Shown one piece after another: positions 17,784-18,546 of a DNA stretch of 64,000 bases (the first letter of the stretch is position 1; each line of letters opens with the position of its first letter). The DNA comes from Cephaloticoccus sp. (GTDB taxonomy: Bacteria > Verrucomicrobiota > Verrucomicrobiia > Opitutales > Opitutaceae): assembly GCA_030833445.1 (NCBI GenBank), contig JAURHD010000005.1, positions 62,001 to 126,000 of the forward strand, given 5' to 3'. A program made the position numbers and the translations under genes. The notes under the pieces were generated by a model that made no database searches, was not told where the DNA came from, and worked only from the letters and a program-made list of their open reading frames with translations.

Positions 17784-18137
17784 TCATCCATGATTGCGCC
17801 ATGCCAACGGCAGGATCGATTGCGGACCGATGATATACACCTGATAATAGAGCCAAAATATCACTACGCCGAGCACGACCAGAAACAAGGCTTCGCCAAT
17901 CTCTCCCGCCGATTGGCGACTGCCACGATGCAGCATTGAAATCATCCAGCTCAAACCTGGAGCCACTACAAATGCCATCAGCGATCCACCAAACAAGACC
18001 ACTCCCATGATCACGGCCGTGGCCACCAAGGGCTCGGCAAAGCCCTTCACTTTGTATTGGGCCACCTCCACGCCCAAATTGAGCACAAGGAGACAGCAGG
18101 GTAAAACGTAGTAGTCGCGAACAACTGCTTTTTTCAT
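17784..18137 (-). CDS. Small membrane protein, unknown
   Basis: 117 residues from the ATG at 18137, preceded by GAGG. Three likely membrane spans (about 9-26, 38-60 and 86-106). I do not recognise a family and see no catalytic motif. Another leftward frame (17740-18222) overlaps it but lacks the membrane pattern and is judged a shadow. It is divergent from the tautomerase gene. Confidence 0.6.
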   Translation of the reverse strand: MKKAVVRDYYVLPCCLLVLNLGVEVAQYKVKGFAEPLVATAVIMGVVLFGGSLMAFVVAPGLSWMISMLHRGSRQSAGEIGEALFLVVLGVVIFWLYYQVYIIGPQSILPLAWRNHG

Positions 18138-18201
18138 GGAAATTTGCCTCACGGGGAAACCAGTAGTTACTTGGTGCTGTCGAACAAATAACCGCAATCC
18201 C

Positions 18202-18546
18202 ATGCCCTAATTCAAAATTCAAACCAACGCGTCACCGACGAAGAAGGTCGGCCGCACTCTGCTCAAGGAGGCCTCTGCACTCGTCGCCCACGAACTGGAA
18301 AAGCCGGAGAATTTCGTGATGGTTGCCCTCCAGCCCAAGACCGAAATGCTCTTTTCCGGCACTGACGCTCCCGTCGCGTTTCTGGAACTCAAAAGCATCG
18401 GGTTGCCGGGTAAAAAGACCAAGGCGCTCAGCCAAGTCCTGTGCACCCTGGTCGAGGAACATCTCAAGATCAGCAAAGAGCGGATCTATGTAAAATTCAT
18501 AGACGTGAACCGCGGGATGTGGGGTTGGAAAGGCGATACTTTTTAA
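18202..18546 (+). pseudogene. MIF-like tautomerase with TAA at codon 3
   Basis: The frame from ATG 18202 reads Met-Pro-stop-Phe-Lys-Ile-Gln-Thr-Asn and then stays open for 111 codons. The protein matches the macrophage migration inhibitory factor family throughout: the N-terminal P-x-x-KIQTN strand, KPENFVMVAL, FLELKSIGLPGKKTKALS and a C-terminal MWGWKGDTF. Normal length is about 115 residues, and so is this frame. The catalytic N-terminal Pro (CCC) is present, but codon 3 (18208-18210), usually Tyr (TAT/TAC), is TAA. One base change explains it. A recent nonsense mutation or a sequencing error is most likely; restart downstream would lose the catalytic Pro. Confidence 0.8.

Follow-up and report, generated by a model that had tools for sequence, protein, structure and literature searches.

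A gene encoding a MIF-like tautomerase (18202–18546, plus strand) is broken by a stop codon at its third codon and is probably a nonsense pseudogene of very recent origin; the genus seems able to do without the gene. We found it in a stretch of 64,000 nucleotides, hereafter called the window, which lies within contig C55 of an Opitutaceae-like draft genome (72 contigs, 2.9 Mb, 97.75% complete). The frame opens with ATG (18202–18204) and CCC (18205–18207), the codon of the catalytic proline. These two codons (18202–18207) are severed from the remainder by an in-frame TAA (18208–18210), after which direct reading of the plus strand gives 111 sense codons and then the terminal TAA (18544–18546). 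Apart from the TAA at codon 3, no further stop and no frameshift were seen when the whole frame was read. The preliminary description had named a TAA at codon 3, placed directly after the catalytic proline, as the sole interruption of a frame with neither frameshift nor other stop, and the reading of the frame bears this out.

We next consider the family to which the frame belongs. With the stop written as X, it matches PF01187 with 89.4 bits (cut-off 22; E 2.6e-25) over profile positions 1–113 of 114, in agreement with the earlier claim that the full family length is kept. The best solved chain by sequence is PDB 2xcz (E 3.2e-22), which we take to be the MIF homologue of Prochlorococcus marinus. 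The window gene shares with this chain and with the MIF family a full-length alignment, containing two one-residue gaps, and the Met-Pro start, but in the window gene a stop codon separates the catalytic proline from everything that follows. The N-terminal proline of MIF proteins is described in PMC4407349 as the tautomerase residue. In the window gene, the mature N-terminal proline that characterizes the family is not joined to the fold: CCC is codon 2 and TAA comes next. Judged from the nucleotide sequence and the standard code, no product of the gene would hold both the N-terminal proline and the fold. We propose that one nonsense event hit codon 3 of a MIF-family tautomerase gene, too recently for other decay to have followed; translation would then end after Met-Pro, and the cell would probably lack the active protein.

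To place the stop in an evolutionary context, we compared the gene with its relatives. The set comprised 45 loci including that of the window, 43 of which extend back to codon 1, while L039 and L048 are cut by contig ends. These two, five remote loci (L013–L017, 30–42% identical) and nine duplicates were dropped, leaving 29 distinct coding sequences including the window's. The relatives begin with the same ATG and proline codon as the window gene, and codon 3 of the other 28 distinct sequences is TAC (20), TAT (7) or TTC (1). Tyr therefore stands at this position in 27 of 28 and Phe in one, as the preliminary description had expected when it called Tyr the usual residue. As would be the case for a recent lesion, a stop at codon 3 occurs in none of the 28 distinct relatives; it is likewise missing from all 42 other loci in which this codon was read, with TAT, TGT, TTC, CTC and ATT in the remote L013–L017. 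Codon 4 encodes Leu in all 28 other sequences versus Phe in the window, and this Leu4Phe exchange is the sole change of the window sequence at the 30 columns that are invariant among the others. Codons 4–114 (333 bases) are free of gaps in all 29 rows.

Nine close-relative loci in genome_contigs, 68–77% identical over 111 residues, come from MAGs of Opitutaceae (3), uncultured Opitutae (4) and Verrucomicrobia (2). The coding sequence of one of them, L018 (Opitutaceae), is identical to that of L006, whose host genome belongs to the same genus as the window. The intact MIF genes of the Opitutaceae MAGs (L006/L018, L019 and L020) are 73–77% identical to the window gene and are also flanked by a GluQ-like gene upstream and a MazG-like gene downstream, but their codon 3 is TAC and their frame is open. 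A broader family search gave a match in 42 of 252 genomes. None of the 43 matches listed contains an internal stop, a result that leaves codon 3 untouched, as the query began at codon 4. Thirteen of these matches yielded no locus, and one of them, G020, was already present as L014, so that codon 3 stayed unread in 12. The stop codon is known from a single assembly of the species, and an exact 26-mer of the gene, used to look for another member of the species, was unmatched in viral_contigs.

Selection on the window's branch was estimated with a GY-type codon model (F3x4), for which the tree and the relative branch lengths were taken from IQ-TREE and the window branch was given its own omega. 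The one-omega likelihood matches IQ-TREE's own value (–5593.07). The best grid value for the window branch was an omega of ∼0.05, compared with 0.054 for the background, and an omega of 1 was worse by 30 lnL units; purifying selection is thus as strong on this lineage as on the others. Constraint is seen on both sides of the first common internal start: an omega of 1 was worse by 8 lnL units for codons 4–38, which precede it, and by 21 for codons 39–114. When the branch was allowed to end in a neutral phase and all other parameters were held constant, this two-phase fit favored a neutral time of 0. On a branch of ∼6 neutral substitutions per codon, lnL had dropped by ∼2 when the neutral phase reached about 0.19. 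These values give the age of the lesion as a bound only, because the topology is weak (bootstraps of 20–40 near the window branch) and synonymous sites are saturated at ∼6 neutral units. The G+C content of the locus, 0.557 versus at least 0.596 in the other 28, sets a further limit on the selection fits. Little or no time without selection is what a very recent pseudogene should show, and an intact gene would score alike.

The same data bear on the idea that the gene is an older pseudogene, which has drifted without selection and looks intact by luck. Leu4Phe at an otherwise invariant column and the length of the window branch, the third longest terminal branch of the 29 in the nucleotide tree, would suit such a history. 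Nevertheless, the cost of neutrality on this branch speaks against it, as does the expectation that neutral point changes would add another stop at a rate of ∼29 per 1000; no such stop is seen in the frame. We regard an older origin as hardly credible, and the nonsense event as probably recent.

We also asked what could still be translated from the frame. The constraint on codons 4–38 would be expected if a useful protein were made despite the stop, be it by read-through of the TAA, by re-initiation at GTG 18316 or by use of a non-AUG start such as the ATT of codon 6, but several observations make this unlikely. The first common in-frame start past the stop is this GTG (codon 39), followed by ATG 18319. 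A product begun there (18316–18546, plus strand) would be a 76-residue fragment without the catalytic proline and without the first third of the protein; internal starts thus forfeit the catalytic residue. All 42 RF00005 tRNA matches of the own genome carry anticodons for sense codons, and a suppressor or other UAA-reading tRNA was looked for and not found among them; this set is incomplete and may have missed a tRNA, because Ile (gat) and Ala (tgc) tRNAs are missing from it. Programmed frameshifting was rejected as a rescue, because the frame is identical before and after the stop. Moreover, the same gene is terminated by TAA, and since codon 3 is a stop in none of the 42 other loci, the arrangement is not conserved. 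Read-through of the TAA is therefore without positive support, and selection alone does not refute it. One special form of it, in which a functional tautomerase is made through the TAA, for instance by low-rate tyrosine insertion, so that the early stop would set the output level of a single-copy and fully selected enzyme, appears very improbable to us. A second copy of the gene as a backup was considered as well and rejected, as MIF gives a single match in the own genome.

The main rival to a recent nonsense pseudogene is that the gene is intact in the organism and the stop stems from an error of assembly or sequencing, or from the allele of a minority strain that entered the consensus. We consider this possible, if rather doubtful. 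The genome is a draft in 72 contigs, and an intact gene in which one base was misread would likewise display undiminished constraint and no second lesion. On the other hand, two adjacent bases differ from the relatives, a pattern that one misread base would be less likely to produce. Moreover, few other genes are interrupted in the 342 kb that were scanned, and sister species are without the gene altogether. The last point makes a real loss plausible, and we infer that the stop is probably present in the cellular DNA. The statement of the preliminary description that inactivation would be very recent, unless read-through or a sequencing error is involved, is thus supported by the constraint on the branch, by Tyr in the relatives and by the lack of the gene in most of the genus.

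The two adjacent bases, 18210 and 18211, yield both the stop and Leu4Phe. They are equal to the bases 7 positions downstream and thereby complete a perfect period-7 repeat (18209–18223, plus strand), which consists of ATTCAAA at 18210–18216 and again at 18217–18223, plus one preceding base. This is the only period-7 run of at least 8 matches in the window. A single template-switch event could lie behind both base changes, which we offer as a suggestion only. By our own reckoning, such a match arises by chance in ∼1 in 6 to 1 in 9 cases and about one such run is expected per window; the statistical weight of the repeat is small.

The background of broken genes was determined by scanning 342 kb, made up of the window and a further 278 kb on three contigs of the draft, in which 315 non-overlapping coding-like segments were accepted. 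Only four of them have no start codon close to where the coding signal sets in. Two were judged false by eye: one is presumably the gene for ribosomal protein S15, in which ATG follows at codon 30, and the other is sigma-factor-like and has a GTG at codon 23. The other two look truly broken: the MIF-like gene and one encoding a phospholipase A1 (PF02253). This low background of interruptions fits rare real lesions or rare errors. The phospholipase A1 gene, located on the minus strand at about 17300–18000 of L072, in contig C55 outside the window, is split over two frames by an apparent frameshift.

A comparable case is aaxB of Chlamydia trachomatis. In PMC2720952, aaxB of C. trachomatis L2 is reported as a recent nonsense pseudogene with a single ochre stop, and the substitution ratios of the gene in C. 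trachomatis show no sign of relaxed selection. The window gene resembles aaxB in its one ochre stop and in the lack of relaxed selection, whereas gene, organism and position of the stop are different and the aaxB case was proven by experiment. As a probable pseudogene, the window gene is nothing new in kind and represents ordinary biology.

The genomic neighborhood gives information about the history of the gene. The MIF-like frame is preceded by a MoaB-like gene with a molybdopterin-binding domain (PF00994; 17213–17743, plus strand), which is a conserved upstream neighbor in many relatives, and followed by a gene for a MazG-like protein (PF12643; 18639–19016, minus strand), a conserved convergent neighbor. 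Next to the MIF gene lies a small divergent frame with the look of a membrane protein (17784–18203, minus strand; start probably at 18137), for which no Pfam match was obtained. It is present in only one of the nine genus genomes, that of the window, yet within the family several further genera carry it next to MIF. Outside the genus, MIF is found between MoaB and MazG in, for example, L007, L010, L011, L041 and L043. Because of this conserved place in Opitutaceae, the gene was probably inherited vertically, and it is probably ancestral.

Within the genus, MIF is present in two of nine genomes, the window's and G008, which carries an intact copy. It was not found in seven of the eight other genus genomes; two of these seven are less than 90% complete (among all eight, G003, G004 and G008 fall below this value). 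The MazG-like neighbor is present in seven of nine, with neither MIF nor MazG matched in G005 and G007. In G001, G002, G003 and G006, the MoaB–MazG interval is present without a recognizable MIF remnant (best match E 0.09 over 22 residues), and in G004 the contig ends inside this interval. The gene is probably dispensable in this genus. A genus tree calculated from MoaB and MazG has bootstraps of 29–84, too weak for counting losses.

If the stop is real, gene loss would have been caught here at its first step, with no MIF gene seen in seven of the eight other genus genomes, four of which lack it at the same syntenic place. It would suggest, without proving it, that loss can begin with a point lesion before deletion. 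About the function of bacterial MIF proteins, little would be learned beyond dispensability in this organism.

A further conserved gene was observed in this region. It carries the motif PDLTQ.PPRS near its start, presumably encodes a DUF5069 protein, and adjoins MazG on the upstream side in G001, G003, G004, G002 and G008 (L052, L053, L054, L056 and L006, respectively). In the window this gene is not located beside MazG, and the gap between MIF and MazG measures 92 bases.
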